Source: Actinomycetota bacterium
Lineage (GTDB): Bacteria > Actinomycetota > Actinomycetes > Nanopelagicales > Nanopelagicaceae
Assembly (NCBI GenBank): GCA_009701085.1
Contig: WLKV01000004.1
Location: forward strand, 1 to 14,010
DNA length: 14,010 bases
Reading direction: 5' to 3'
Notes under the pieces: model-generated
What the model was told of the DNA's origin: nothing
The model's input: only the letters and a program-made list of their open reading frames with translations
Databases searched by the model: none
Shown here: positions 1 through 13,403 of the stretch, one piece after another
Numbering within the stretch: the stretch's first letter is position 1
Layout: the number at the start of each line of letters is the position of its first letter
Made by a program: the position numbers and the translations under genes

Positions 1-39
1 ATACCAAAGCGAGGCGCTATCCAAGAGCATCAGTGTCAT
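1..39 (-). CDS. 5'-3' exonuclease-like protein, N-terminal 13 codons only (partial)
   Basis: An ATG at 39-37 overlaps the helY stop as ATGA and opens a frame that runs off the window edge, reading MTLMLLDSASLWY. The hydrophobic strand followed by LLDSASLWY resembles the start of actinobacterial 5'-3' exonuclease / PIN-FEN family proteins (such as M. tuberculosis Rv2090), where this Asp is the first metal-binding acid. Those proteins act on flapped or nicked DNA in replication and repair. A gene of this family near helY is also seen in other actinobacteria. The 4-nt overlap suggests translational coupling as the last visible gene of the operon. Only 13 residues are visible, so the family call rests on a short motif plus context. 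Confidence 0.62.
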   Translation of the reverse strand, partial: MTLMLLDSASLWY

Positions 40-2411
40 AGATCGCCCAACATATATGAGATGACGCCTCTATCCAAGCGCTTGATTCCCTCGCGACAAG
101 CAGGGCGAAGTTCTTCAGCGGCTCCACCGATTTGTGTAAGAAGATCGATGAGTTGCTTGATGCTTCGAACAAAGTCGCCGACTGTCATATCAGTGCCTTT
201 GAGAACGCCGCTGAGTGAATGGCCATTAGCCCATCGAAATGCTGCATAACAGAAACCGAAATCTGGTTCGCGTTGAGTCTTGACATCAAATTCATTCTCT
301 ATCGCCTCTAACTCAATCCAAATCTTGGAAACGGCAACGAGTGCGTTTGCAACATTATCGTTCGGCATCTTAGGGGCGTATGGTTCGGAACTTCTTCCTT
401 GATAAATCATCGCTGAAGCTACAGAGAGCAATTCAGGTGGTGTCAACGAATCAAAGACTCCACGTCGAATAGATTCCGTGAGGAGTAAATCCGATTCAGC
501 GAAGATCTTGGCAAGAATCTTGCCTTGCTCAAGAGGCTTCTCCCCCTCGATATAGCCTAGATGTGTAAGAACATCACAGATGCGATCAAATGTCTTTGCA
601 ATGACGTGTGTGCGGTTCTCGACTCGAGAACGAAGACCATCGGATTCCCTATTGAGTCGATCAGCCTTTTCAGCGAATCGCGCATGTGTTTCTCTATCGT
701 TACATGAGTGACATGAGTGCTGGCGCAAGGATCGACGCATTCCATCCAGTTCATTTTCAAGCTTGACACGTTGACGTTGGTCGATACTTCGACGACCATC
801 TCGCTTACTAAGTAAGCGTTCTAGCTCTTTAATATCGATACGCATACGCGAATACTCAGAGAAGTCGCCTAAGTGGCATTGGGCCGAATCTGTGAGTTCT
901 GCAGCGGCAGAGTTATTCTTCTTAATCTGACGGACAAGGCCAACCACGGCTCGGTCAGCCTGGAATTGCGCAAAGGAAGATTCAAGACTTCCGTGTGCTC
1001 TTTCGCGACCAAAACGAGCAATGAGGTTGATCGACATGTTGTATGTCGGAGTAAACGACGAACGAAGTGGATATGTTCGCGTCGATGCAAGTCCCGCAGC
1101 CGTTGCAGAATCTACGGTCGGAGACCATTGAACAACGGCATTGCCTTCAATATCGATTCCCCGACGTCCAGCGCGACCTGTGAGCTGGGTGTACTCCCCC
1201 GGGGTGATTGAAACGTGTGCCTCACCATTCCACTTCGTCAGCTTTTCAAGGACAACTGTTCGCGCCGGCATATTAATTCCTAGTGCGAGAGTTTCAGTAG
1301 CAAATACAGCCTTTACCAATCCACGTTTGAAGAGATCCTCTACCGCACCTTTAAAGCTCGGTAAGAGACCTGCATGGTGCGCAGCTATTCCGCGCTCGAG
1401 AGCAATGAGCCAATCGCGATAGCCAAGAACTTCGAGATCCTCTTCAGCGAGATTCTGCGTATATCGGGCTGCTGTCTGGGCAATTTCGAGGCGTTCTTCG
1501 GTGTTGGTGAGTTTGATACCGGCTGCCAGACATTGCTTCACTGCAGCGTCACAACCCGCACGCGAAAAGATAAAGGTAATTGCTGGCAGCAAATTTTCAC
1601 GTTGAAGTTTCTCGATAATGTCCGGACGTGTGAGGCGACTATCGCCATCTCCGAATCTCTCACGACGATGTCGAGGTGTTCGCACCTGACGGAGCGCTTC
1701 GCGCTCGAGCCCCAAAATCTCGGGATTGATTCTTCCTTGCTCACGGAAGAGGTCAACGAGGCGATCACCAATCAATACATGTTGATAGAGCGGAATAGGT
1801 CGAATTTCAGAGACGATGACTTCGGTAGAACCGCGCACTTCACCGAGCCAATCACCAAACTCTTCCGCATTGGAGACCGTTGCAGAGAGCGAAATAACTT
1901 GAACACTCTCCATGAGGTGGATCAATACCTCTTCCCACACCGCACCACGTGATTTATCGGCGAGATAGTGGACCTCATCCATCACTACAGAGCCAAGATT
2001 CTTCAGCGTTGTCGAATTGGCGTAGAGCATGTTTCGCAATACTTCGGTAGTCATGACCAACACATCTGCTTCAGAGTTGATATTGGTATCGCCGGTGAGA
2101 AGGCCTACTCGATCCTCACCAAAACGTTCTACAAACTCTTGAAACTTCTGATTCGAGAGGGCCTTAATCGGTGTCGTGTAGAAACATTTCTTTCCCTGAG
2201 CAAGTGCGCTGAAAGCGGCAAATTCACCGACAACTGTCTTTCCCGCGCCAGTGGGAGCGGCGACAAGGACGCCCTTGCCATCTTCAACAGCTTGGCAGGC
2301 TTTGATCTGGAATTCATCGAAACCAAAATCGAATTGCTCGATAAATTCAATCGTGAGTGGATGCTTTCCGCGTTGCTTTGCTGCGGCGTAGCGCTCGGCA
2401 GGTGTTGTCAT
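36..2411 (-). CDS. helY: HelY-type Ski2-like DEAD/DEVH-box helicase
   Basis: A 791-residue superfamily 2 helicase of the Ski2/Mtr4-like HelY group, presumed to unwind RNA or DNA using ATP in the cytoplasm. Visible motifs: Walker A APTGAGKT at 52-59, TTPIKALSNQK (motif Ia) at 79-89, DEVH Walker B at 145-148, SAT (motif III) at 176-178, and TGRAGRRG (motif VI) at 411-418. A helical arch-like insert carries HSCHSCNDRETH at 565-576, a Cys/His cluster typical of actinobacterial HelY. A DSHCT-type helical domain ends the protein. It is shorter than the roughly 900-residue mycobacterial homologue. The ATG at 2411 is chosen because it gives an ATGA overlap with the upstream kinase gene and starts the typical TPAERYAAAK sequence. 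An ATG 33 nt further upstream would add an atypical basic leader. There is no clear Shine-Dalgarno, so reinitiation after the upstream stop is likely. The cellular substrate is not established. Confidence 0.93.
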   Translation of the reverse strand: MTTPAERYAAAKQRGKHPLTIEFIEQFDFGFDEFQIKACQAVEDGKGVLVAAPTGAGKTVVGEFAAFSALAQGKKCFYTTPIKALSNQKFQEFVERFGEDRVGLLTGDTNINSEADVLVMTTEVLRNMLYANSTTLKNLGSVVMDEVHYLADKSRGAVWEEVLIHLMESVQVISLSATVSNAEEFGDWLGEVRGSTEVIVSEIRPIPLYQHVLIGDRLVDLFREQGRINPEILGLEREALRQVRTPRHRRERFGDGDSRLTRPDIIEKLQRENLLPAITFIFSRAGCDAAVKQCLAAGIKLTNTEERLEIAQTAARYTQNLAEEDLEVLGYRDWLIALERGIAAHHAGLLPSFKGAVEDLFKRGLVKAVFATETLALGINMPARTVVLEKLTKWNGEAHVSITPGEYTQLTGRAGRRGIDIEGNAVVQWSPTVDSATAAGLASTRTYPLRSSFTPTYNMSINLIARFGRERAHGSLESSFAQFQADRAVVGLVRQIKKNNSAAAELTDSAQCHLGDFSEYSRMRIDIKELERLLSKRDGRRSIDQRQRVKLENELDGMRRSLRQHSCHSCNDRETHARFAEKADRLNRESDGLRSRVENRTHVIAKTFDRICDVLTHLGYIEGEKPLEQGKILAKIFAESDLLLTESIRRGVFDSLTPPELLSVASAMIYQGRSSEPYAPKMPNDNVANALVAVSKIWIELEAIENEFDVKTQREPDFGFCYAAFRWANGHSLSGVLKGTDMTVGDFVRSIKQLIDLLTQIGGAAEELRPACREGIKRLDRGVISYMLGDL

Positions 2412-3274
2412 AGTGACCACGTAAGACCGGCGTCTTTGACGCAATCAGCAGAGACCGGTGCTGGACCTATTCGCTCACCATCGGCATATGCAATCGCATC
2501 AGCAATGAGCTTCACCCTCTTCGAACGATAAATCTTCACCTTCGGGTGGGTTATATGGGAACCGGAGTAAACCTTCGGAAAGACTTTTAAGAACTCTACT
2601 TTGGAGACCGGTTCAAGAACCATGACATCAAATAGCCCGTCATGCATCTGTGCTTGAGGACAGACATACATTCCCCCACCGTACGAACGTCCGTTACCGA
2701 TCGCAATCAGCATTGCTTCAGTGGTGAAGGAATGTGTATCCAAAGTGATTTCATATGTCAGAGGTCTAAATTTTGGGAGTTCGAGTGCAATAGCGACGTT
2801 ATATCTCTGGGGACCTTTGGGCCATGCAAGAGAGTTAGCTCGTTCGTTAACCACAGAATCAAAACCAGTGGAGAGGATTGCTGCAAACCATTCTCCATCG
2901 ACATTTCCAAGATCTATCGGTCGCGCAGCAACTGTTGTGACACGGTCTAAATAACCATCAATCTCATCGAGCGACCATCCCAATGTTCGAACGATGTCAT
3001 TACCTGTGCCTGCGGGCATGACTGCGAATGGAATATGACGCGGAACGGTGAGCTGAAGAATGAGATGAGCTAAACCATCTCCCCCAACGCTTACTACCCC
3101 TTCGCAATTTCGCGAGTCGAGGAAGACTTCAAGGTGCGATTTAAGTTCCAGTGCAGAATGTGCAGAAAAAACTTGATAATCAAGTTCGTGATCTGAAAAG
3201 TATTGAACAACCTTTTCGCCTACAGAGATCCCTCTACCGTGGCCAGACGTTGGGTTGATTGCTATCGCCCACAT
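2408..3274 (-). CDS. Diacylglycerol kinase / YegS-like lipid kinase family protein
   Basis: A 288-residue member of the DAGK catalytic family, which phosphorylates diacylglycerol, sphingoid bases or related lipids at the inner membrane face. Motifs: NPTSGHGRG at 7-15, the nucleotide-binding SVGGDGL at 62-68, PAGTGNDIVRTLG at 87-99, DGLFDV at 212-217 and a DGE motif at 265-267. Length is normal for the family. The ATG at 3274 forms TAATG with the tatC stop (1-nt overlap), and the gene's own stop overlaps the helY start as ATGA, so it is embedded in the operon. GAAAG about 6 nt before the ATG may serve as a weak ribosome site. The lipid substrate cannot be read from sequence. A role in recycling diacylglycerol from cell-envelope synthesis is plausible but inferred. 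Confidence 0.9.
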   Translation of the reverse strand: MWAIAINPTSGHGRGISVGEKVVQYFSDHELDYQVFSAHSALELKSHLEVFLDSRNCEGVVSVGGDGLAHLILQLTVPRHIPFAVMPAGTGNDIVRTLGWSLDEIDGYLDRVTTVAARPIDLGNVDGEWFAAILSTGFDSVVNERANSLAWPKGPQRYNVAIALELPKFRPLTYEITLDTHSFTTEAMLIAIGNGRSYGGGMYVCPQAQMHDGLFDVMVLEPVSKVEFLKVFPKVYSGSHITHPKVKIYRSKRVKLIADAIAYADGERIGPAPVSADCVKDAGLTWSL

Positions 3275-4062
3275 TAGATGCTTTCTAATAATTCATTAGC
3301 TCGTGACCTACGTTCACGACGTCGATCATTGAGTAGAGCTATTCCACCTGCAAGGAGATAGAGAAGAATCAGTGGAACTGCCAGCGCAAGCATGGAGAGA
3401 GGATCTGCGCTGGGTGTGAATCCTGCAACGAAGAGACAGATCGCAAAGACCCAAATGCGCCATGGCTTGAGAATTGCTTTGCCAGATAGGAAGCCGATTA
3501 AGTTAAAAGTCACAAGGAAGACTGGAAGCTCGAAGGCGATACCGAAGAGAAGAATCGCTCGCATCACGAAATCGAGGTAATCATCGAACTTCACCAAGTT
3601 TGCAAGAGATGTAGGCGTGAATCCAAAGAGGACTCTGACCGCGATGGGAAGAATCGAGTAACCCAGATATGCGCCTACTGCGAAGAATGGAGTAGCTGCA
3701 ATGAAGAAGAGGATTGAGTTTCGCTTCTCCTTGCGATGGAGCGCAGGTGCAATGAATGCCCACAATTGATAGAGCCAGAGAGGGGCGGTAATGATGATGC
3801 CGCTCAGGATTGCAACTTTAATTTGAAGATTTAGTGGGCCAAGTACGCCGTTGATATAGAGAGCTCCGCAACTTGCAGCTCCGCTCTCTTGTGCAGCGCG
3901 CAGATCGCACACTGGTTCAGCTAATTTGGTGATGATCTCGTTATAGAAGAACCAACCAACAATGGATCCAAGGCTGATTGCAAGAGCCGATTTAACTACT
4001 CGATTACGTAGCTCTCGGAAATGTTCTAAAAGCGGCATACGACCGCCAGAGGTGGCCGCCAT
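3274..4062 (-). CDS. tatC: Sec-independent protein translocase TatC
   Basis: A 262-residue polytopic membrane protein, the twin-arginine signal-peptide receptor of the Tat pathway, which exports folded proteins. The N-terminal cytoplasmic motif HFRELRNR (14-21) holds the conserved Glu. FELP at 177-180 carries the second conserved Glu in a membrane segment. PLWLYQLWAFIAPALHRKEK (94-113) is the family's first cytoplasmic loop. About six hydrophobic segments are visible, near 25-41, 83-104, 117-145, 166-190, 202-214 and 225-244. It starts 5 nt after the tatA stop, with AGAAG about 8 nt upstream as a possible ribosome site. A later ATG at residue 9 is also possible. Only TatA and TatC are encoded here. 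A TatB, if present, lies elsewhere. Confidence 0.96.
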   Translation of the reverse strand: MAATSGGRMPLLEHFRELRNRVVKSALAISLGSIVGWFFYNEIITKLAEPVCDLRAAQESGAASCGALYINGVLGPLNLQIKVAILSGIIITAPLWLYQLWAFIAPALHRKEKRNSILFFIAATPFFAVGAYLGYSILPIAVRVLFGFTPTSLANLVKFDDYLDFVMRAILLFGIAFELPVFLVTFNLIGFLSGKAILKPWRIWVFAICLFVAGFTPSADPLSMLALAVPLILLYLLAGGIALLNDRRRERRSRANELLESI

Positions 4063-4067
4063 AGAAA

Positions 4068-4250
4068 TTACTTCTCGTCAGAGCCTTTATCTGGATCCTT
4101 TGACTCGTCCTTCATCTCTTTCATCTCGCTCTTGAAGATGCGCATTGACTTGCCGAGTGAACGGGCTGAGTCTGGAAGACGCTTAGCTCCAAAGAGGACG
4201 ACTACTACGAGTAGGAGAAGCAGGATGTGGCTAGGTTCGCGTAAAAACAT
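4068..4250 (-). CDS. tatA: Twin-arginine translocase subunit TatA
   Basis: A 60-residue pore-forming component of the Tat export system. It has one short N-terminal membrane helix (about residues 8-20, leucine/valine rich), the FGAKRLPD hinge at 20-27, an amphipathic helix with [16 protein letters not shown] at 31-46, and a charged Lys/Asp/Glu tail. The ATG at 4250 is preferred. The frame extends 60 codons further upstream, but that part overlaps pafC antiparallel-free in another frame and does not look like a Tat protein. It lies 28 nt after pafC, the largest gap in this operon, without a strong Shine-Dalgarno. At 60 residues it is at the short end for TatA. The gene pair pafC-tatA-tatC is the usual actinobacterial order. 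Confidence 0.94.
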
Positions 4251-4278
4251 GCCGTAACAGTATCGCAAAGGCGAAGAT

Positions 4279-5175
4279 TCAGCGATATTCCTTGAGGGTT
4301 CGGGTGGCGATATCGGCGATGCGGCCACGTATTTCTGCGGACTCTGTGACCTCGATGGCTCCGGCTGCCGAGATAACGGTTCGTGACAACCACTCGGAGT
4401 TGTAGCTAGAAACAGAAACTTCAGCGCCATCGCCTGTCAAGAAGCTCCCTAACATCTCGCGAGACCTACGAATATTTCGCGAAATTATGAGCGCCGTCTT
4501 TATCAATTCTTGATTCGAAGTAGAGGGAGCAGTTACGGCAGCCTGTGCGTCAAGGAGAACTGCGCTCTGAATTCGGTCGACCCTAAATGTTCTCTGCGCC
4601 GATGCGCTGTCGCAGAATGCTGTGACGAAGTCACGTCCATCAGAGACTGAGAGATGTAAGGGAGTGATATCTCGTTCAGTGATTTCATCATCGGTAGGCG
4701 AGAAATATGAGATATGAATCTTCTTCTGCTCGACCATCGCCTTCTTGATAACCGCAACAATCTGTCCATCCTGAGCAGGAGTAGCATCGAGAATTCGGGA
4801 AGTGCCCTGGCCTAATTTTAGACGAAGAGCCGCAATTTCACCGACAATGTCTAATCGCTCGGCAGATAAATTCTTCTCAATGAGATCGAGGCCGATAAGG
4901 ATTGAAATAATCTCTTGCTGGGATAGTGATCGAATCAAGTTCAGCGTTTGCGCATTTCGAATCGTCACATATCCTGAATCAAATTGAAGATCGATGAGAT
5001 CAAATCTGTTATCACCGCACATCCAGAGAGAGTTGAGATCGCTTAAGAGTTCATCTTCAGTGATTCCGAATTGCGAAGCTAAATCCTTTGTAGAGATGCC
5101 TTGATGAGACGTGATGAAAGGGACGAGATCGAGCATTCGGGCCGCCTTCTCGAGAGGCGTCGATTTCTTACCCAT
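4279..5175 (-). CDS. pafC: PafC, WYL-domain DNA-damage transcription activator subunit
   Basis: A 298-residue partner of PafB. In mycobacteria PafBC is a heteromeric activator of the LexA-independent DNA-damage regulon. The N-terminal part (about 1-75) is a winged-helix-like DNA-binding region with [21 protein letters not shown]. The WYL core spans about 135-215 (IHISYFSP at 153-160; [19 protein letters not shown] at 170-188; TFRVDRI at 196-202), and a WCX-like C-terminal domain follows. The signature site is degenerate: DFV (182-184) stands where related proteins have a Trp/Ser-Tyr-Leu arrangement. The ATG at 5175 overlaps the pafB stop by 8 nt and yields the expected N-terminus [16 protein letters not shown] start 27 nt upstream adds an unlikely leader. 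Without a visible Shine-Dalgarno, translational coupling to pafB is likely. Confidence 0.92.
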
Positions 5176-6109
5176 GACGTTGGACAATCTCTGTAAGGGC
5201 ATTTATTGCAGATTGACGAATTTTCTCGGGTGCAAGGATTACTGCATCAGCCCCATGCCAGAGTACATCGCTCAAAAGTTCAGATTCTCGAACGAAAGGT
5301 ATTTCCAGAGTCGTCCAATCATCGCCCTCTGCAATCGACACCGCCTTCAAACGCAAGGAATGTGCCTTATCTCGGCGGACCTTTATCGTTGCAATCTCTC
5401 GCTCTTCTGGAACTGAGAGTGCGCTACTCATCAGAAATGTCTCGGGAATCTCATACGCCGATGGCTTACCTTGAACTGCGACCTCAGAATCAAAACGGTC
5501 GAGACGGAAGAGCCTCTCTTCTTTACGATCGAGATCTCGTCCCGCCACATACCAGTAACCGGATTTCGTTCCGGCCCCGAAAGGTTCAATCACTCGACTC
5601 TCGGACTCGAACTCAGCATTGAGGTATGAGAAGGAAATTACTTGTCGTTGTGCAATGGCATTGATGATGGTGAGAAAGTTGGTATCTGAAATATGTACCG
5701 ATGGCGCAATGGCAGGAATTGAATCAAAATCCGAATCGATTCCGAGCGACTTAAGCTTTACCAAAGCTGAGAGCGCTGTCGAGTCGAGAATCGCACCTTG
5801 CCACGCCTGGGTAGCGAGAGAGATGAGCGAAAGCTCTCTTGGTGAGATGGATGAGATATGCGCCTTGTAGCTCTCTGGTCGAATGCGATAACCAACCTCA
5901 TCTTCGAAGAGCGGATCGAATGAACCCACTTCAATCGTTATTCCTAGATTGCGGAGGTCATCTTTGTCGCGTTCAAACATACGTTCCATCGCATCTGGTT
6001 CACCTTCGTAACCATCGATGGAGGTAAAAATCTGAGACTTGGTCAACCAGCGTTTGGTAGCAAGGAGCGCGATTGTTAAATTGACTAAGCGCTCACTCTT
6101 CCGTGACAC
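5168..6109 (-). CDS. pafB: PafB, WYL-domain DNA-damage transcription activator subunit
   Basis: A 313-residue subunit of the PafBC activator. Family knowledge: it works with PafC at promoters of the type TTGTCRGTG-N8-TANNNT after DNA damage, independently of proteasomal degradation despite its name (proteasome accessory factor). Residues 1-78 are a winged helix (SERLVNLTIALLATKRWLT at 5-23, MERMFERDKDDLRNLGI at 41-57). The WYL core has ISFSYLNAE at 158-166, GYWYVAGRD at 184-192 and RLFRLDRF at 199-206. A WCX-like domain follows. The frame is open back to 6151, but the GTG at 6109 is chosen because it gives the standard N-terminus and has AAAGG 9 nt upstream. It overlaps the trmI end by 17 nt. 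The usual upstream neighbour pafA is absent. Confidence 0.92.
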   Translation of the reverse strand: MSRKSERLVNLTIALLATKRWLTKSQIFTSIDGYEGEPDAMERMFERDKDDLRNLGITIEVGSFDPLFEDEVGYRIRPESYKAHISSISPRELSLISLATQAWQGAILDSTALSALVKLKSLGIDSDFDSIPAIAPSVHISDTNFLTIINAIAQRQVISFSYLNAEFESESRVIEPFGAGTKSGYWYVAGRDLDRKEERLFRLDRFDSEVAVQGKPSAYEIPETFLMSSALSVPEEREIATIKVRRDKAHSLRLKAVSIAEGDDWTTLEIPFVRESELLSDVLWHGADAVILAPEKIRQSAINALTEIVQRHG

Positions 6110-6944
6110 CGTATGCACCCTTTGCAGGACGTCGGCGTCGAGGAAGAACATCTACACCCGGGGCCATACGTCGACTCTGAATCAAAAATCCAGTGTGTCC
6201 GATCATTCTTTGTTGTGGACGCACCGCGAGACCTTCATGATGCCATCCACGAACAATCGTTTCAGAGCTCTCTGGTTCAGTGAAATGGCCATCTTCCTTA
6301 AGCGCCTCAGCCGTTGCTGACAATTGTGTCGTGGTTGCGACATAGGCAAGGAATACACCACCTGGGCGCAATACCTTCGCAGCCATCTCCACGCACTCCC
6401 ATGGAGCGAGCATGTCGAGAATAACGCGATCAAATTCGTGGCTGAACTCTTTCTCTTGCACCGAACCAACTTCAAGTGACCAGTTGGTTGGTTTCTCGCC
6501 AAAGTAATCGGTGATATTTGCTGTTGCATTATCAGCAAAATCTTGGCGACGTTCGACTGAGTGAACTGAACCTTCGGAACCAACTGCTCGTAAAAGAGAG
6601 AGAGTGAGTGCTCCACTTCCTACTCCAGCTTCAAGAACGCGCGCGCCAGGATAGATATCGGCAACGCCCACGATCATTGCCGCATCTTTAGGATAAACAA
6701 TCGTTGCGCCGCGCGGCATAGAAAGAACATAATCTGCAAGAAGGGGAATAAATGCTGTGAATTTCAGACCAGCTGTTGTGCTGACAACAGAACCTTCGGG
6801 AAGACCGATGAGATCATCGTGAGTGATCCAACCCTTATGGGTATGCCACTCTTTTCCTGGAGTTATTGTGAAGCTATAGAGCTTTCCCTTGGGATCGGTA
6901 AGTTGGATTCGATCACCGGCTTGGAAATACCCTTGTTTAGACAC
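6093..6944 (-). CDS. trmI: tRNA (adenine-58-N1)-methyltransferase TrmI
   Basis: A 283-residue SAM-dependent enzyme making 1-methyladenosine at position 58 in the T-loop of tRNAs, of the Rv2118c type. A small N-terminal beta domain (1-75) is followed by YPKDAAMIV at 84-92, a Rossmann methyltransferase core with motif I EAGVGSGAL at 105-113, the ribose-contact Glu130 in SVER, and catalytic-site LDMLAPW at 176-182. GWHHEGLAVRPQQRMIGHTGFL (233-254) is also family typical. Length matches the mycobacterial enzyme. The start is GTG at 6944: an in-frame TAA lies 10-12 nt upstream and no ATG is available. No Shine-Dalgarno is present and a -10-like box ends 6 nt before the GTG, so translation is probably leaderless. 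It is the first gene of the long minus-strand operon. Confidence 0.95.
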   Translation of the reverse strand: MSKQGYFQAGDRIQLTDPKGKLYSFTITPGKEWHTHKGWITHDDLIGLPEGSVVSTTAGLKFTAFIPLLADYVLSMPRGATIVYPKDAAMIVGVADIYPGARVLEAGVGSGALTLSLLRAVGSEGSVHSVERRQDFADNATANITDYFGEKPTNWSLEVGSVQEKEFSHEFDRVILDMLAPWECVEMAAKVLRPGGVFLAYVATTTQLSATAEALKEDGHFTEPESSETIVRGWHHEGLAVRPQQRMIGHTGFLIQSRRMAPGVDVLPRRRRPAKGAYGVTEE

Positions 6945-6950
6945 AAGCGC

Positions 6951-6979
6951 ATCTTAGGTGAAAGTCACCTCGCTGTCGG
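6951..6979 (-). promoter_or_regulatory. Candidate leaderless promoter for trmI-pafB-pafC-tat-helY operon
   Basis: Read on the minus strand: CCGACA (-35-like, 6979-6974), a 17-nt spacer, then TAAGAT (-10-like, 6956-6951, fitting the actinobacterial TANNNT), and the trmI GTG begins 7 nt later at 6944. This geometry predicts a transcript starting at or next to the GTG. It is the only evident promoter for the visible part of the operon. No transcription data are available here, so this is a sequence-based prediction. Confidence 0.5.
6956..6970. repeat. Inverted repeat AGGTGA-AAG-TCACCT (possible operator)
   Basis: Perfect 6-bp arms (AGGTGA / TCACCT) flank a 3-nt centre. The repeat covers the spacer and touches the upstream edge of the trmI -10-like box, a position suited to a dimeric repressor. 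It also lies just upstream of the divergent nuclease promoter. A 15-bp dyad of this kind fits an operator better than a terminator, since no U-run follows and it sits before both genes. The binding protein is unknown. Confidence 0.4.
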
Positions 6980-6995
6980 CATCGCGCTGTATCGT
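6973..6995 (+). promoter_or_regulatory. Candidate PafBC-dependent (RecA-NDp-like) promoter for the RecB-like nuclease
   Basis: CTGTCGGCA (6973-6981), exactly 8 nt, then TATCGT (6990-6995). The published mycobacterial damage promoter is tTGTCRgtg-N8-TAnnnT, with the less conserved positions in lower case. All upper-case positions (TGTCR) match, one of the weaker positions matches, spacing is exact and the -10 fits TANNNT. The -10 ends 7 nt before the ATG at 7003, as expected for a leaderless start. The regulator's genes pafB/pafC lie in the divergent operon. Binding is inferred, not shown. Confidence 0.5.
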
Positions 6996-7002
6996 CCGTG
7001 TG

Positions 7003-7755
7003 ATGGAACCGTTACGCCTCTCCCCTAGCCGTATGAACGATTTCACCAACTGTCCACAGTTATACAAATATCGCGCTGTCGACCAATTACCCGAACCACC
7101 GAGCATCGATGCCGAACGCGGCAAGTTGATCCACGCTGTCCTTGAAGACCTCTTTGAACTTCCCGCTCCTCAGCGAACTTTTGAGTCCGCGCTCGAAATT
7201 CTGCCCACAAAATGGAGCGAACAATTAGAAGGGAAGCCAGAGCTAGCAGCCCTCGTTCTCGACGAGAAAGAGTGGTTTGACCGAGCTCATTCACTCTTGA
7301 CCAATTACTTCTCATTAGAAAAGCCATCCTCTTTTGAATCCACTTATCGCGAACTTCACTTAGAGCGAGATATCTCCGAAGAAATCTATCTCCATGGTTA
7401 TGTCGATCGCCTCGATGTTGCACCCACTGGAGAAGTTCGAATCGTTGATTACAAGACCGGCAAGTCTCCAAAACCGGGCTGGGAAGAGAAGGCGCTCTTT
7501 CAATTACGCGTCTATGCGCTTCTCTATTGGCAGAATGAAGGTGTCTTACCGAAGCTTCTCCAATTGATTTATCTCGGAGATTCACGTGTAGTTAGGAGCG
7601 AACCGACTGAAGCTCAGCTCAAATCTACTGAAAAGATTCTTAAAAATATTGGGGATGAAATTCTGACTGCTCTTGAGACAGGTGATTTTCCAACAAAGAA
7701 GTCACGACTCTGTGATTGGTGTTTCTTTAAAGCAATCTGCCCAGCACATAACTAA
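7003..7755 (+). CDS. RecB/Cas4-like PD-(D/E)XK nuclease with probable Fe-S cluster
   Basis: A 250-residue single-domain nuclease of the RecB family (PDDEXK_1; Rv2119-like), presumed to act on DNA ends during repair. Active-site elements: GKLIHAVLEDLF with His44, GYVDRLD with Asp135, IVDYKTGK with Asp149 and Lys151, and the Q-motif FQLRVYALLY with Gln167. Cys17 (NCPQLYKYR) plus Cys237-x2-Cys240-x5-Cys246 at the C-terminus form the C...CxxCx5C arrangement seen in AddB and Cas4 iron-sulfur nucleases. No helicase domain is present. The ATG at 7003 is chosen because it gives the family start LRLSPSRMNDF and sits 7 nt after a -10-like box. A GTG directly before it, and one at 6958, are alternatives. 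It is divergent from trmI and ends 4 nt from the metH stop. Confidence 0.88.
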   Translation: MEPLRLSPSRMNDFTNCPQLYKYRAVDQLPEPPSIDAERGKLIHAVLEDLFELPAPQRTFESALEILPTKWSEQLEGKPELAALVLDEKEWFDRAHSLLTNYFSLEKPSSFESTYRELHLERDISEEIYLHGYVDRLDVAPTGEVRIVDYKTGKSPKPGWEEKALFQLRVYALLYWQNEGVLPKLLQLIYLGDSRVVRSEPTEAQLKSTEKILKNIGDEILTALETGDFPTKKSRLCDWCFFKAICPAHN

Positions 7756-7759
7756 GAAG

Positions 7760-10700
7760 TTAGTTGGCGTTGAAGTACTTCGCTTCCGGGTGATGCACGA
7801 TTATTGCTGACGTCGATTGTTCTGGATGAAGCTGGAACTCCTCCGAAAGCTCAACTCCGATTCGACCTGGTTCAAGCAGCTCACATAGTTGAGTCTGTTG
7901 TTCGATATCAGGACATGCCGGATACCCGAATGAGTAACGAGAACCTCGGTATCCCTGATCAAGAATTCCTTGAAGGTCGGGTGAATCATCTCCACGGACA
8001 GCCATCTCCTCGCGGATACGTGCATGCCAGTGTTCAGCTAACGCTTCAGTTAATTGAACTGAGAGACCATGTAACTCAAGATAATCACGATAGGCATCTG
8101 CGGCAAAGAGCTCATTAGCTGCCTTGCTGACCGTGTTGCCCATCGTGACAACATGGAATGCAACGACATCGGTCTTACCCGAATCTTTCGAGGCGAAGAA
8201 ATCTGCAAGACATAATCTGCGATCGCGAGATTGACGTGGGAATGAGAAACGGGTGCGCTCTTTTCCTGCATCGGGTCCTTCATGATGAAGAATAATCAGA
8301 TCATTGCCATCAGAGACACATGGGAAGTAGCCATAGACAACAGCTGCTTCTAGCCACCCGTTGGATTGAACTTCATTGAGCAATTTACGAAGTCGTGGAC
8401 GACCTTCAGTTTCAGCCATCGCTTCGAATTCTCCGCGTGCACCTTTGAGGCCCCACTGACCCATGAAGAGTGCGCGTTCATCGAGCATGCCAACATAATC
8501 TGCGAGAGGAATTCCTTTAACAATTCGTGAACCGAAGAAGGGAGCTTTTGGAATTTCAATGTCTAGCGCAACATCACTTCGCACTGTATCGAGTGGACGA
8601 TCTTCTGCTTTACGTGCGACAGCCTTCACCTTACGTTCGCGCAGTGCAGGAAGTTCAGCTCCCTCGTCTCCGCGCTTAACCGCCATGATTGCATCCATAA
8701 GTCGTAGACCTTCAAAGGCGTCACGGGCGTAACGAACTTCTCCGGGGAAGATCGAGGCAAGATCTTGTTCTACATAAGCACGAGTAAGGGCTGCTCCCCC
8801 AAGTACTACCGGCCACTTATCCGATAAACCACGTGAAGTAATCTCTTCAAGATTCTCCTTCATGATTACTGTTGATTTCACAAGGAGTCCAGACATACCA
8901 ATAGCATCCACTTCATTTTCAAGTGCTGCATCGATAATTTGATTGATTGTCTGCTTAATTCCAATATTAACTACTTGATATCCATTATTAGAAAGGATGA
9001 TATCTACCAGGTTCTTGCCAATATCGTGTACGTCGCCCTTTACCGTTGCAAGCAACATACGCCCGCGGCCAGCATCGCTCGTCTTCTCCATATGGGGTTC
9101 GAGATAAGCAACTGCTGATTTCATTACTTCTGCGCTCTGAAGAACGAATGGGAGTTGCATCTCGCCCTTACCGAAGAGCTCGCCGACGACCTTCATGCCC
9201 TCGAGAAGATGGTCGTTAATGATAGAAAGTGGAGCGATACCTTCCGACATAGCGGTATCGAGATCGTCGGTAAGACCCACTTTTTCGCCATCGATGATTC
9301 GACGCTCTAAACGTTCGCGCAATGGAAGGGCTGCAAGCTCTGAGGCTCGAATGTTGCGGGAGGCGGCGAGCTCTACTCCTTCAAATAACTGGAGGAACTC
9401 TTGGAGGGGATCGTAAGTACATGTGTCACCGTCGTAGATACGACGATCATAGATGAGGTCGAGGGCAACTTCCTTCTGACGAGCTTCGATACGTGCCATA
9501 GGCATAATCTTTGAAGGATGAACGATGGCCGAATCGAGACCAGCTTCCACACATTCGTGCAGGAAGACTGAGTTGAGAACGACTCGGGCTGCGGGATTAA
9601 GACCGAATGAGACGTTACTGACGCCGAGAGTTGTCTGGACTCCTGGATATTCAGTCTTCAGAGTTTTGATTGCACTAATCGTTTCAATTCCATCGCGACG
9701 AGTCTCTTCTTGACCCGTGGCTATTGGGAAAGTGAGCGTATCAATCAAGATATCTCCCACGTTCATTCCCCAATTGCCGGTGAGATCTTCAATGAGTCGA
9801 CGAGCTACGCGCAATTTCCAATCTGCAGTTCGAGCTTGTCCCTCCTCATCAATCGTGAGAGCAACAACCGATGCGCCATGCTCCTGAACCAAAGGCATGA
9901 TGCGAGCAAACCGTGAAGTGGGTCCATCACCATCTTCGTAGTTAACGGAGTTGATCACACAGCGTCCACCAAGGGCTTCAAGACCAGCTTTCAGAACAGC
10001 AGGCTCGGTCGAGTCGAGAACTATCGGAAGTGTCGAGGCAGTTGCGAAACGCGAAGCGATTTCATACATGTCGCGTGCGCCGTCGCGACCTACATAATCG
10101 ACAGAGAGATCAAGCATGTGTGCACCATCGCGAATTTGATCACGTGCGATTTCAACACATGTTGCCCAATCTTCAGCAACGAGTGCATCGCGGAAGGCTC
10201 GTGAACCATTGGCATTAGTACGTTCACCGATTGCTAGATAGGTCTTATCTTGTCTAAAGGGAACGTATTGATAGAGAGATGATGCACCTGGATCCAATTC
10301 AGGAATGCGACTCTTTACAGCATGACGATCAAGGCGAGAAACAACAGCGGCTAAATGTGCTGGCGTAGTTCCGCAGCAACCACCAATCAAAGAAATTCCG
10401 TAATCATTGACGAAAGTTTCCAGCGCAGTGGCAAGCTCTTCAGGGCCTAATGGGTACTCAGCTCCCTTAGCTCCAAGGATGGGAAGACCAGCATTAGGCA
10501 TTACTGAGATGGAACAGGTTGCATTCTTGGAGAGATAGCGGAGATGTTCTGACATCTCGGCAGGACCTGTTGCACAGTTGAGGCCGATGAGATCAATAGT
10601 GAGAGGTTCGAGGGCATTGAGAGCTGCACCGATTTCAGAACCGAGCAACATGGTTCCGGTTGTTTCAACCGTTACTTGTGCAATCAGAATGACATCGCGC

Positions 10701-11272
10701 TCTGACTCATCAATTGCTTGTCGTGCGCCATTGACTGCAGCTTTTGCTTGAAGCAAATCTTGTGTTGTCTCGATGAGAAGTGCATCAGAACCAGAATCTA
10801 CGAGCCCCTTCGACGCCGTGTAGTAAGCCTCTTTCAGGTGCGCATACGTTGTATGGCCCAAGCTGGGGAGCTTTGTTCCCGGCCCAAGCGAACCTAAAAC
10901 AAAGCGTGGCTTGTCGGGAGTACTAAATGCATCAGCGGCTTCACGCGCAATCTTTCCACCAGCAAATGCAAGTTCGTAGATTCGATCTTCAATTCCATAT
11001 TCAGCCAAGTTTGCCCAGTTGGCTCCGAAGGTATTCGTTTCAACGGCATCTACTCCGACGGCAAGGTAGGCATCGTGAACTGAACGAACTAGATCCGGTC
11101 GGGTGATGTTGAGAATCTCGTTGCAGCCTTCGTGGTTTTGGAAATCTTCGAGCGAAGGATCTGCTGCCTGCAGCATTGTGCCCATGGCCCCATCGGCAAT
11201 TACGGTGCGGGATGCAAGGGCTTGACGGAGCAGACCTTCGGCTACTGGATGTGCCTTCTTATCGCTCGTCAC
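7760..11272 (-). CDS. metH: Cobalamin-dependent methionine synthase (5-methyltetrahydrofolate-homocysteine methyltransferase)
   Basis: A 1170-residue full-length MetH transferring the methyl group of 5-methyl-THF via methylcobalamin to homocysteine. All four modules are present in order. The homocysteine/zinc domain (about 1-325) has GAMGTML at 28-34, NCATGP with Cys232/233 region at 232-237 and GGCCGTTP at 297-304. The pterin-binding domain (about 340-610) has IGERTNANGS at 348-357. The B12 cap and binding domains (about 650-890) have GDVHDIGKN at 746-754, with axial His749, SGLLVKS at 794-800 and GGAALTR at 825-831. The SAM-binding reactivation domain (about 910-1165) has RYSFGYPACPD at 1112-1122. 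The start is GTG at 11272; the frame stays open upstream but offers no ATG. It stands alone between a convergent nuclease and a divergent PAC2 gene. No cobalamin riboswitch fits in the 20-nt leader space. Confidence 0.97.
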   Translation of the reverse strand: MTSDKKAHPVAEGLLRQALASRTVIADGAMGTMLQAADPSLEDFQNHEGCNEILNITRPDLVRSVHDAYLAVGVDAVETNTFGANWANLAEYGIEDRIYELAFAGGKIAREAADAFSTPDKPRFVLGSLGPGTKLPSLGHTTYAHLKEAYYTASKGLVDSGSDALLIETTQDLLQAKAAVNGARQAIDESERDVILIAQVTVETTGTMLLGSEIGAALNALEPLTIDLIGLNCATGPAEMSEHLRYLSKNATCSISVMPNAGLPILGAKGAEYPLGPEELATALETFVNDYGISLIGGCCGTTPAHLAAVVSRLDRHAVKSRIPELDPGASSLYQYVPFRQDKTYLAIGERTNANGSRAFRDALVAEDWATCVEIARDQIRDGAHMLDLSVDYVGRDGARDMYEIASRFATASTLPIVLDSTEPAVLKAGLEALGGRCVINSVNYEDGDGPTSRFARIMPLVQEHGASVVALTIDEEGQARTADWKLRVARRLIEDLTGNWGMNVGDILIDTLTFPIATGQEETRRDGIETISAIKTLKTEYPGVQTTLGVSNVSFGLNPAARVVLNSVFLHECVEAGLDSAIVHPSKIMPMARIEARQKEVALDLIYDRRIYDGDTCTYDPLQEFLQLFEGVELAASRNIRASELAALPLRERLERRIIDGEKVGLTDDLDTAMSEGIAPLSIINDHLLEGMKVVGELFGKGEMQLPFVLQSAEVMKSAVAYLEPHMEKTSDAGRGRMLLATVKGDVHDIGKNLVDIILSNNGYQVVNIGIKQTINQIIDAALENEVDAIGMSGLLVKSTVIMKENLEEITSRGLSDKWPVVLGGAALTRAYVEQDLASIFPGEVRYARDAFEGLRLMDAIMAVKRGDEGAELPALRERKVKAVARKAEDRPLDTVRSDVALDIEIPKAPFFGSRIVKGIPLADYVGMLDERALFMGQWGLKGARGEFEAMAETEGRPRLRKLLNEVQSNGWLEAAVVYGYFPCVSDGNDLIILHHEGPDAGKERTRFSFPRQSRDRRLCLADFFASKDSGKTDVVAFHVVTMGNTVSKAANELFAADAYRDYLELHGLSVQLTEALAEHWHARIREEMAVRGDDSPDLQGILDQGYRGSRYSFGYPACPDIEQQTQLCELLEPGRIGVELSEEFQLHPEQSTSAIIVHHPEAKYFNAN

Positions 11273-11292: not shown

Positions 11293-12165
11293 GTGTCCGA
11301 TGTGGAGATTCATCAAATACCTGCGCTCCGTTCGCCCGTCATGGTTATCGCATTTTCGGGCTGGAACGATGCAGGCGAGGCTGCAACGGGCGCTGCATCC
11401 CATCTCTTAGCTTCATGGACTGACTCTTCTACTGATGTTGTTCCCGAATTGATTGCTGATGTCGACCCAGAGGATTTCTATGACTTCCAAGTCAATAGAC
11501 CGATGGTGGAAGTCGATGATTCAAGTATTCGTAGCCTCACATGGCCCGGTACTCAAGTCTTTGGTTTACGTACACCGAACCTTGACCATGACTTCGTCGT
11601 AGTCCGTGGTGTTGAACCATCGATGAAGTGGAAGACTTTTGCTGCAGACATTCTCGATCTGGCAGATGATCTCGAAGTAGATATGGTGATCACTCTTGGA
11701 TCTATGTTGGCTGATACCCCTCACACTCGCCCCATCACGGTGAGTGGAAGTGGCGCACACCCTGAGATTGCACGTCGCCTCGGAGTGGAAATTAGTAAAT
11801 ATGAAGGCCCCACTGGAATTCTAGGCGTCATTCAAGATGCATGCGTTCGTCGTGGGATAGATGCAGTATCTCTCTGGGCTGGGATTCCTCACTATGCATC
11901 AAATTCACCTTCACCTAAGGCGACACTCGCCCTCGTTAATGCTCTCGAAGATTTCCTTGAAATTTCTCTTCCACAAGGAGATCTACCCGAAGAGTCAGCA
12001 ACATGGGAAGAAGAAGTAACAGAGATGGCCAAGGAAGATTCCGACGTAGCCGAATATGTGAAAGCACTTGAAGAGAGCAAAGATTCCTCCGAGTTACCTG
12101 AAGCCACCGGAGAATCAATTGCTCGCGAGTTGGAAAGATTTTTACGCCGACAAACGGAGAATTAA
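11293..12165 (+). CDS. PAC2 family protein
   Basis: A 290-residue protein of the PAC2 superfamily (Rv2125-like). The eukaryotic namesake is a proteasome assembly chaperone, while the bacterial function is unestablished. Visible family features are AFSGWNDAGEAATGAASHL at 20-38, LRTPNLDHDF then VVVRGVEPSMKW near 92-113, VITLGSMLADTPHTRP at 132-147 and SLWAGIPHYASNSPSPKA at 193-210. The last 70 residues are acidic and probably helical. It is a soluble protein without a signal peptide. Start: the GTG at 11293 has TGAGG 10 nt upstream. A second GTG at 11302 with AAGG 8 nt upstream is equally credible and would remove three residues. It diverges from metH and overlaps the mshC stop tail-to-tail by 4 nt. 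Proteasome genes are not found at this locus, so a proteasome role should not be assumed. Confidence 0.88.
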   Translation: MSDVEIHQIPALRSPVMVIAFSGWNDAGEAATGAASHLLASWTDSSTDVVPELIADVDPEDFYDFQVNRPMVEVDDSSIRSLTWPGTQVFGLRTPNLDHDFVVVRGVEPSMKWKTFAADILDLADDLEVDMVITLGSMLADTPHTRPITVSGSGAHPEIARRLGVEISKYEGPTGILGVIQDACVRRGIDAVSLWAGIPHYASNSPSPKATLALVNALEDFLEISLPQGDLPEESATWEEEVTEMAKEDSDVAEYVKALEESKDSSELPEATGESIARELERFLRRQTEN

Positions 12166-13403
12166 AGGGCGATTCCAAGCAAAGTATCGAGCGCACGTGA
12201 AAGCTCTCCCGCAACTCCCCCGGTGGCCCCAGATTCTGTTGATTCCATCCATCTCTTAATTGCCGCAAGTGCCCGTGGCGTATCTAAGTTCTGTGAGAGA
12301 GCTGCGATGACTTCTGTAATGACATCGTCAGTCGGAGCAACTTCCATACGTGCAAGGTTGAGTTGAAGTCGATCAATATCAACTGACGCTTGAGCCAGGA
12401 GTGAACCAGTCCACATGAGATCGGCGGCGTAAGGGTGGCCCATGAGCGCCCAACGAATTGCTGCTGGATTTACACCAGATGAGATGAGTTTGGAGACAAA
12501 GACCAAGTTGCCGAGAGATTTACTCATCTTCTCACCATCAAGGCCGATCATTCCGGCATGAACATAGCTACGCGCAAATTTCTGGCTGTTAATACTGCGA
12601 CTCTGCGCAGCTGACATCTCATGATGAGGGAAGACGAGATCGCTTCCACCTCCTTGAATATCAATAGCATATTCATCGTTTGCATCTGGACTTAAGTAAT
12701 GCAAGGCGATTGCGCAACATTCGATATGCCAGCCGGGTCGACCTGCTCCAAATGGACTTGGCCAACCTGGCTCGCCTCCACGTTGCGAGAGCCAAACAAG
12801 TGCATCGAGAGGATCTTCCTTCCCTGGCTTCTTGGGATCCCCGCCGCGTTCTGCAAAGATTTCGAGCATCTTCTCTTGCGAATAGTGAGAGCGTTCGCCG
12901 AACTCTGAATCTGAATGAACTCTGTAATAGATATCCGAACCCACTTCATATGTGGTTCCAGCATCGCGCAACTTTTGAACAGCATCAACGACAAGCGGCA
13001 TAGCTTCCACAACCCCGATGTAATCCTTGGGCGGGATGATATGGAGATCTGTCATATCTCCCATAAATAGATCAACTTGCGATTGGGCGAGATCCTTCCA
13101 ATCGACACCATCACGATGTGCTCGTTCGAGAAGTGGATCATCGATATCAGTGATGTTTTGAACGAAATCCACCCTCGCACCTGTAGCGCGCAAAAATCGG
13201 TTGATGAGATCGAAGGTCAAATAGGTTGCAGCATGTCCTAAGTGCGTCGCATCGTATGGCGTGATGCCACAGACATACATTCTGTAGTGGGATTTTTTTG
13301 GAAGAGTCTCTACTTTCTGTGCTGCAGTGTTGAAGAGCGCAAGCTCAGGTACCTGAAAACGCGAATGCAGCTGTGGGATGTAGAGATCAGGCCAGGCGCG
13401 CAT
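12162..13403 (-). CDS. mshC: L-cysteine:1D-myo-inositol 2-amino-2-deoxy-alpha-D-glucopyranoside ligase (mycothiol biosynthesis)
   Basis: A 413-residue class I synthetase homologue that attaches cysteine to GlcN-inositol using ATP, the third dedicated step of mycothiol synthesis. It is told from cysteinyl-tRNA synthetase by its length (about 414 for MshC) and the MshC signature YVCGITPYDATHLGHAATY (43-61), with HLGH at 54-57. Other features are the nucleotide loop KMSKS at 292-296 and likely zinc ligands Cys45, Cys229 (GWHIEC) and His260/261 (GGGSDLVFPHH). The truncated C-terminus lacks a tRNA anticodon-binding domain. The start is ATG at 13403, 15 nt after the upstream kinase-like gene, with no clear Shine-Dalgarno, so the two are probably cotranscribed. 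Its presence implies that the organism makes mycothiol as its main low-molecular-weight thiol. Confidence 0.95.
   Translation of the reverse strand: MRAWPDLYIPQLHSRFQVPELALFNTAAQKVETLPKKSHYRMYVCGITPYDATHLGHAATYLTFDLINRFLRATGARVDFVQNITDIDDPLLERAHRDGVDWKDLAQSQVDLFMGDMTDLHIIPPKDYIGVVEAMPLVVDAVQKLRDAGTTYEVGSDIYYRVHSDSEFGERSHYSQEKMLEIFAERGGDPKKPGKEDPLDALVWLSQRGGEPGWPSPFGAGRPGWHIECCAIALHYLSPDANDEYAIDIQGGGSDLVFPHHEMSAAQSRSINSQKFARSYVHAGMIGLDGEKMSKSLGNLVFVSKLISSGVNPAAIRWALMGHPYAADLMWTGSLLAQASVDIDRLQLNLARMEVAPTDDVITEVIAALSQNLDTPRALAAIKRWMESTESGATGGVAGELSRALDTLLGIAL

Follow-up and report, generated by a model that had tools for sequence, protein, structure and literature searches.

PafBC appears to work without the proteasome after which it is named in a family of freshwater Actinobacteria

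Introduction

A 2021 review describes the Pup-proteasome (PPS) locus as universal in Actinobacteria. Passages of PMC4255298 call proteasomes nearly universal in actinobacteria, and a portion of PMC6466877 states that about half have lost the genes for the core subunits and retained the pupylation enzymes.

Two described systems come closest to the locus reported here. The first is that of the prcBA-less Actinobacteria with pupylation, such as Corynebacterium, which, going by excerpts of PMC8223512, PMC3511204 and PMC6466877, resemble the present locus in a secondary loss inside the PPS locus. However, in the family under study the locus is also without pup, pafA, dop and mpa, and the genomes searched, apart from the five given below, are without Pup ligase/Dop. 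The second is the mycobacterial PafBC regulon, in which, according to parts of PMC8223512 and PMC11804915, recA-type genes stand under both PafBC and LexA. The likeness here extends to the PafBC residues, to a GTCRGTG-N8-TANNNT element and to an SOS box at recA, whereas the family under study has no Pup-proteasome to clear RecA, and in 9 of the 12 loci from the genus concerned a gap of 2 nt separates the element from the SOS box. The terms proteasome, pupyl and PafB do not occur in the main text of PMC5301498, which deals with acI genomes. No earlier report of whole-locus loss in the family, or of PafBC without pupylation, was found in a literature coverage that is partial and does not prove novelty.

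Results and discussion

The trmI-pafB junction

Along the window, that is the whole 14,010-nt stretch of DNA analysed, the minus strand carries genes for a DEAD/DSHCT helicase (36..2444), a diacylglycerol-kinase-like protein (2408..3274; DAGK_cat and YegS_C domains), TatC (3274..4062), TatA (4068..4250), PafC (4279..5175; HTH_PafC and WYL), PafB (5168..6109) and the tRNA methyltransferase TrmI (6093..6944; TrmI-like_N and GCD14). Upstream of trmI lie a PDDEXK nuclease gene on the plus strand (6958..7755) and, on the minus strand, metH for methionine synthase (7760..11272) and mshC for the mycothiol cysteine ligase (12162..13403). The listed tatA ORF extends to 4430, and a shorter start is assumed. 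The pafC ORF is open to 5202 with ATG 5175 as the likely start, which would give an 8-nt overlap with pafB.

The gene for the transcriptional activator subunit PafB, with its WYL and WCX domains, has a frame open to 6151. This position is the longest-ORF start and probably not the one used; sequence comparison favours the GTG at 6109-6107, which is the start common to relatives (one of the nine compared has ATG). An SD-like AAAGGG lies ahead of this GTG, within trmI (6118..6123, minus strand), and the corresponding site in the nine relatives reads AAAGG or AAGGG. With trmI ending at 6093 and pafB beginning at the GTG at 6109, the two genes overlap by 17 nt (6093..6109, minus strand), with no gene between them, just as the initial annotation of this DNA had described. 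This is the place that the PPS block occupies in PPS-bearing relatives.

The junction is identical over 62 of 62 nt to that of strain IMCC25003 (CP015603, a complete genome), which is the nearest named relative (PafB 97% identical) and is assigned to acI-A1 in a passage of PMC5301498; around the junction the two sequences show 95.3% identity over 451 nt, gap-free. Since the same junction is present in relatives and is identical in the complete genome of IMCC25003, it does not represent an assembly join, an artefact against which the initial annotation had cautioned for positions of about 6093-6151. The recurrence of the junction was surveyed in 80 named loci. These are the best-ranking of 528 confirmed relatives, so that near kin dominate among them. 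Within these best 80, both trmI and pafB are present in 79, and 73 show a trmI/pafB overlap of 14 or 17 nt, the lengths being extrapolated from tblastn ends. In six of the best 80, trmI and pafB are separated by an FKBP gene of opposite orientation, and none of the 80 gave a PPS gene by tblastn, pup and mpa included. The comparison across related genomes that had been proposed at the outset thus returns the same PPS-free junction. Ca. Planktophila lacus and Ca. P. versatilis are among the sources of the loci surveyed, and from these names we infer for the window a position within or adjacent to Ca. Planktophila (family Nanopelagicaceae). Several genome records of the family are titled Bifidobacterium breve or Streptomyces griseus (L224, L226, L227, L247 and others) and are apparently mislabelled.

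The flanking genes, all of which were at first thought to keep the ancestral order, do so for the most part. The exceptions are an FKBP gene next to pafB, which has likewise disappeared, and metH, whose position is taken in the PPS-bearing loci examined by a HAD gene alone.

It is highly probable, in our judgement, that an ancestor of most genera of the family, including the Ca. Planktophila lineage, deleted the whole PPS block from the trmI-pafB site, most likely in one event, and that PafBC stayed in place as a DNA-damage activator. The leftover FKBP gene would then have been lost in the lineage of the window, which would have produced the trmI/pafB overlap and probably the translational coupling of the two genes. 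PafBC would still sense single-stranded DNA via the WYL residues of PafB. Acting at GTCRGTG-N8-TANNNT promoters next to LexA boxes, it would switch on recA and a dnaE2-like operon, and the gene products would be removed by a non-proteasome protease or not actively. The observed basis of this explanation comprises the junction, the distribution of two marker families, synteny, a locus tree, residues and a promoter motif, from which PafBC activity, translational coupling and the mode of product clearance are presumed. In what follows the 17 genera drawn from the family are designated g1 (the genus of the window) to g17. All five family genomes positive for PF03136, the Pup ligase/depupylase family, fall in g6 and g15.

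A PafBC-type promoter element at recA and other genes

The sequence TTGTCRGTG-N8-TANNNT, which we take to be the RecA-NDp (PafBC-type) consensus, was reportedly set out by Gamulin in 2004. The existence of a RecA-NDp motif, and the action of PafBC through it, are described in passages of PMC8223512. Of 38 usable recA loci, nine that had been drawn by the motif itself were excluded; the 29 loci counted come from the 30 with the highest recA scores, one of which lies at a contig edge and was dropped. The core GTCRGTG-N8-TANNNT, taken from the consensus above, occurs at most 600 nt upstream of recA in 24 of these 29 loci, namely 20 of the 25 PPS-less loci and four from the PPS-bearing g6. None of 419 permuted cores reached 24 (the highest gave 8), Markov shuffles gave 0.0 and the opposite strand gave 1. 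An SOS box is found upstream of recA in all 29. The five loci lacking the core belong to g5, to G028 of the window's own genus g1, to g13 (both loci) and to g10, where there is one mismatch. The window's own assembly contains no recA match and no motif match.

A YY-relaxed form of the motif gave 51 matches in 25 genomes. Its scrambled version gave 5, but the reversed motif gave 22 and the reversed scrambled one 19, which makes the excess across whole genomes a modest one. Eighteen of the 51 matches, from 17 of the 25 genomes, precede a recA frame by no more than ~190 nt; for two of the 18 that frame is an upstream-extended one. In most recA loci outside g1, those of the PPS-bearing g6 included, the element is situated downstream of the SOS box. 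A copy of the element ends 2 nt before that box in 9 of 12 g1 loci (seven exact, two with one mismatch); eight of the 12 had been drawn by motif matches, and three of the other four are exact. Three of the 25 genomes, each from another genus (G018, G007 and G051), likewise have motif and SOS box 2-3 nt apart, followed there by a small ORF, recognised by eye, and a gene of the DNA polymerase III alpha type. This polymerase is called dnaE2-like because NCBIfam ranks an error-prone polymerase first or second among its matches, these matches being below cut-off and in pieces truncated by the locus ends.

It might be argued that the element ahead of recA is a conserved leader, or the site of some other regulator, and not a PafBC promoter. 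Most of the genera examined outside g1 do carry CCGTCRGTG-N8-TACCTT downstream of the SOS box and not the exact TTGTC form, but we consider this reading improbable. In those 9 of 12 g1 loci 2 nt separate TTGTCRGTG-N8-TANNNT from the SOS box that follows it, the dnaE2-like operons repeat this arrangement in three genera, and PMC8223512 places recA under the control of a RecA-NDp promoter as well as an SOS/LexA one.

Other genes also lie behind the motif and are candidate targets. These were taken as the longest ORF starting within 350 nt of the motif, a crude rule by which some may be wrong, and include RadA (G015), RecR (PPS-bearing G005, G020) and CarD (G040). Among 14 genomes of the genus that were searched, the window's own incomplete one included, six have behind the motif a gene for a CPBP/Rce1-like membrane protease, an identity for which Pfam was run on four of the six genes. 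Many other matches have no clear target. The motif ahead of the CPBP genes lies at most 8 nt from the ORF start, as for a leaderless transcript (L111, L112, L113, L119, L139 and L143).

Conservation and divergence of PafBC

A PafB-like protein is encoded in 97 of 101 family genomes, with open frames, and LexA in 87 of the 101, the window's own genome included. The PafB and PafC proteins are of the tandem HTH-WYL type, with WYL and WCX in PafB and HTH_PafC and WYL in PafC, and they match the solved chains of 7p5x (in which PafC is so named and PafB is given as a regulator-like protein), of 9fnd and of the 6sj9 PafBC. Residues R181, Y196, R204, R208, R211 and R214 of 7p5x chain AY, the numbering of which fits the M. 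smegmatis residues in a passage of PMC11804915, correspond to R172, Y187, R195, R199, R202 and R205 of the window PafB. According to the same paper, mutants of those six PafB residues no longer bound single-stranded DNA; for R204 and R208 this holds only for a triple mutant that included them. The PafC arginines R201 and R204 align with R195 and R198 of the product of window:4282-5166; the aromatic WCX residues W250, Y254 and Y255 fall outside the aligned part. The PafC arginines are weaker evidence, because the R201/R204 mutant still bound single-stranded DNA (passage of PMC11804915).

Judged from its sequence, PafBC looks functional. The PafBC genes of the window are neither in nor beside a PPS locus. 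The suggestion in the initial annotation that PafBC has a function separate from the proteasome finds indirect backing, in that the residues and promoter sites are conserved in genomes that appear to be proteasome-less.

Within the window's family, relative to the mean for TrmI and the helicase, PafB diverges ~2-5 times and PafC ~3.5-7 times as fast, which could indicate loose constraint. The median ratio of PafB distance to TrmI/helicase distance is 5.20 in the PPS-bearing g6 (3 pairs) and 4.24 in the PPS-less g1 (36 pairs), as compared with 1.78 and 1.63 in f36, a second PPS-less family described below (3 pairs each), and 1.55, 1.89 and 2.28 in PPS-bearing outgroup genera; missing genes led to the exclusion of 9 of 70 pairs, and with them of three whole PPS-bearing outgroup genera. 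Because the PPS-bearing g6 is as fast and the PPS-less f36 is slow, the speed of divergence does not follow from the loss, and the idea that PafBC has evolved faster since the PPS block was gone was rejected.

The same rates bear on the view that PafBC is a decaying or repurposed remnant, which gives no damage response and persists by chance or in another role. Such a remnant would fit the divergence of PafB and PafC in most PPS-less family pairs, which is several times faster than that of TrmI and the helicase, as well as the five of 29 recA loci without the core, but it is hard to reconcile with open frames, with the retention of the residues checked, with a promoter core that is kept and, in 9 of the 12 g1 loci, is separated from the SOS box by 2 nt, or with the equally fast g6 and slower f36, and we regard it as quite unlikely.

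When window positions 3274-6109 are compared with the closely related L039, L300 and L037, pafB, pafC and tatC are seen to be far more divergent than their flanks. Against L300 the values are 0.95 for TrmI and 0.96 for the helicase, and 0.50 for PafB, 0.37 for PafC and 0.68 for TatC. The pattern looks like replacement of the pafB-pafC-tatC block by homologous recombination.

Absence of PPS genes from the genomes

The genome to which the window belongs is 56.5% complete, in 132 contigs. Of the full-genome search suggested at the outset, the parts for Pup, Pup ligase/Dop and the 20S subunits were carried out with profiles, and found none of these in this 56.5% complete assembly. Since the genome is incomplete, its own absences alone prove nothing, and it is the relatives that decide. 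Among 151 family genomes PF03136 is present in five and absent from 146. PF00227, the proteasome/HslV family that includes the 20S subunits, is present in the same five and in none of the other 146. An order-level draw of 251 genomes gave PF03136 in the same five. In the class as a whole PF03136 is present in 250 of 296 genomes drawn; the 46 misses are made up of 28 genomes already drawn in the family or order and 18 new ones, 13 of which belong to f36.

Although the own genome is only 56.5% complete, it is very improbable that the block has been relocated or is missing merely through incomplete assemblies, as PF03136 is absent from 80 of the 83 family genomes of at least 90% completeness and at most 5% contamination (three carry it), and 13 listed one-contig genomes of the same genus have neither PF03136 nor PF00227 anywhere. 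For these two marker families relocation is refuted, and marker distribution, the tblastn searches of named loci and junction identity together led to the rejection of both relocation and assembly error. The choice between loss and relocation that the initial annotation had left thereby comes down, on these two marker families, on the side of loss.

The filled site and the history of the block

Three of the five PPS-bearing family genomes were examined at the site (L044 and L045 of g6, and L054 of g15). All three show the order trmI-mpa-dop-pup-prcB-prcA-pafA, two FKBP genes on the other strand and then pafB-pafC, and the same neighbour genes flank the filled site in g6 and g15. The Pup C-terminus is GGE in L044 and L054, and the PafA, Dop and Mpa proteins of L044 exceed the NCBIfam cut-offs. 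Outgroup loci spanning the site, from other families of the class, have the same PPS gene order, in agreement with the order that the initial annotation gave for M. tuberculosis. The block was present earlier at this exact site, as two genera of the family and other families of the class carry it there.

The PPS-less site was surveyed in one locus per genus, and four in g1. An FKBP gene is found there in g2, g7, g8, g9, g11, g14, g16 and g17; there is no gene in g1, g3, g4 and g5, nor in g12, where 46 nt intervene. In g10 and g13 an ORF named by eye as a cyclophilin-like isomerase, and not FKBP, lies between trmI and pafB (L049 7383-8234; L052 7632-8483).

A maximum-likelihood tree was built from up to six locus proteins of 33 loci and rooted by eye with outgroups; L051 (g12) and L059 were left out for missing data. 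All 14 PPS-less genera that could be placed fall into a single clade (support 100), with g6 and g15 outside it. The outgroups are split from the family with a support of 100, the nodes within the outgroups being partly weak (16-60), and the relative order of g6 and g15 has little support (61). The tree is one of locus genes only, including pafB, pafC and tatC, which may recombine. The existence of one PPS-less clade suggests one deletion, and the loss is old and common to the clade, and probably a single event. That the clade never possessed the PPS block, and that g6 and g15, the only PPS-bearing genera of the 17, gained it by transfer, is scarcely credible and was rejected, since these two genera share site, order and neighbours with other families of the class and branch outside the PPS-less clade.

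A second family without the block

PF03136 was found in none of the 13 genomes drawn from f36, which at a guess is Microbacteriaceae, and an HTH_PafC match was found in all 13. The six f36 loci examined (of 13) each show trmI, at most an FKBP gene and then pafB, with no PPS gene; the FKBP gene was detected by tblastn in five of the six and lies on the same strand. Thus f36 resembles the window's family in keeping PafBC and in having no PPS gene in 6 of 6 loci. As f36 falls among the outgroups on the tree, its loss is independent of the Nanopelagicaceae-type loss, and it differs from the lineage of the window in this independence, in the same-strand FKBP gene and in its high GC content (0.68-0.72). 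Five further genomes from outside the family lack PF03136, and HTH_PafC is present in three of them. The loci of these three contain no PPS gene, and because two of them reach a contig edge near pafB, only G494 is informative on the site.

Implications

In one freshwater family, 15 of the 17 genera sampled keep PafBC with no Pup ligase found, and a second family does so independently. The freshwater group consists of abundant bacteria, in which the PPS block is gone and the adjoining PafBC and its likely promoter sites are kept. PafBC appears, on this comparative evidence, to work without the proteasome after which it is named. The situation amounts to a natural knock-out that separates the activator PafBC from the degradation arm, and it makes testable how, and whether, RecA must be cleared without a proteasome.

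A more tentative and rather doubtful proposal is that the damage response was rewired after the loss of the PPS block. A second PafBC promoter would have arisen against the LexA box at recA and the older downstream one would have decayed in many strains; lineage-specific targets, such as the CPBP (Rce1-like) protease, would have been gained; and the response would be ended by other proteases and not by pupylation. If this were true, the Ca. Planktophila response would end via other proteases in place of pupylation.

A PAC2-family gene (11293..12165, plus strand) is still found near the emptied site of the window despite the loss of the proteasome. In eukaryotes, according to a passage of PMC4255298, PAC2 proteins are assembly chaperones of the 20S proteasome.
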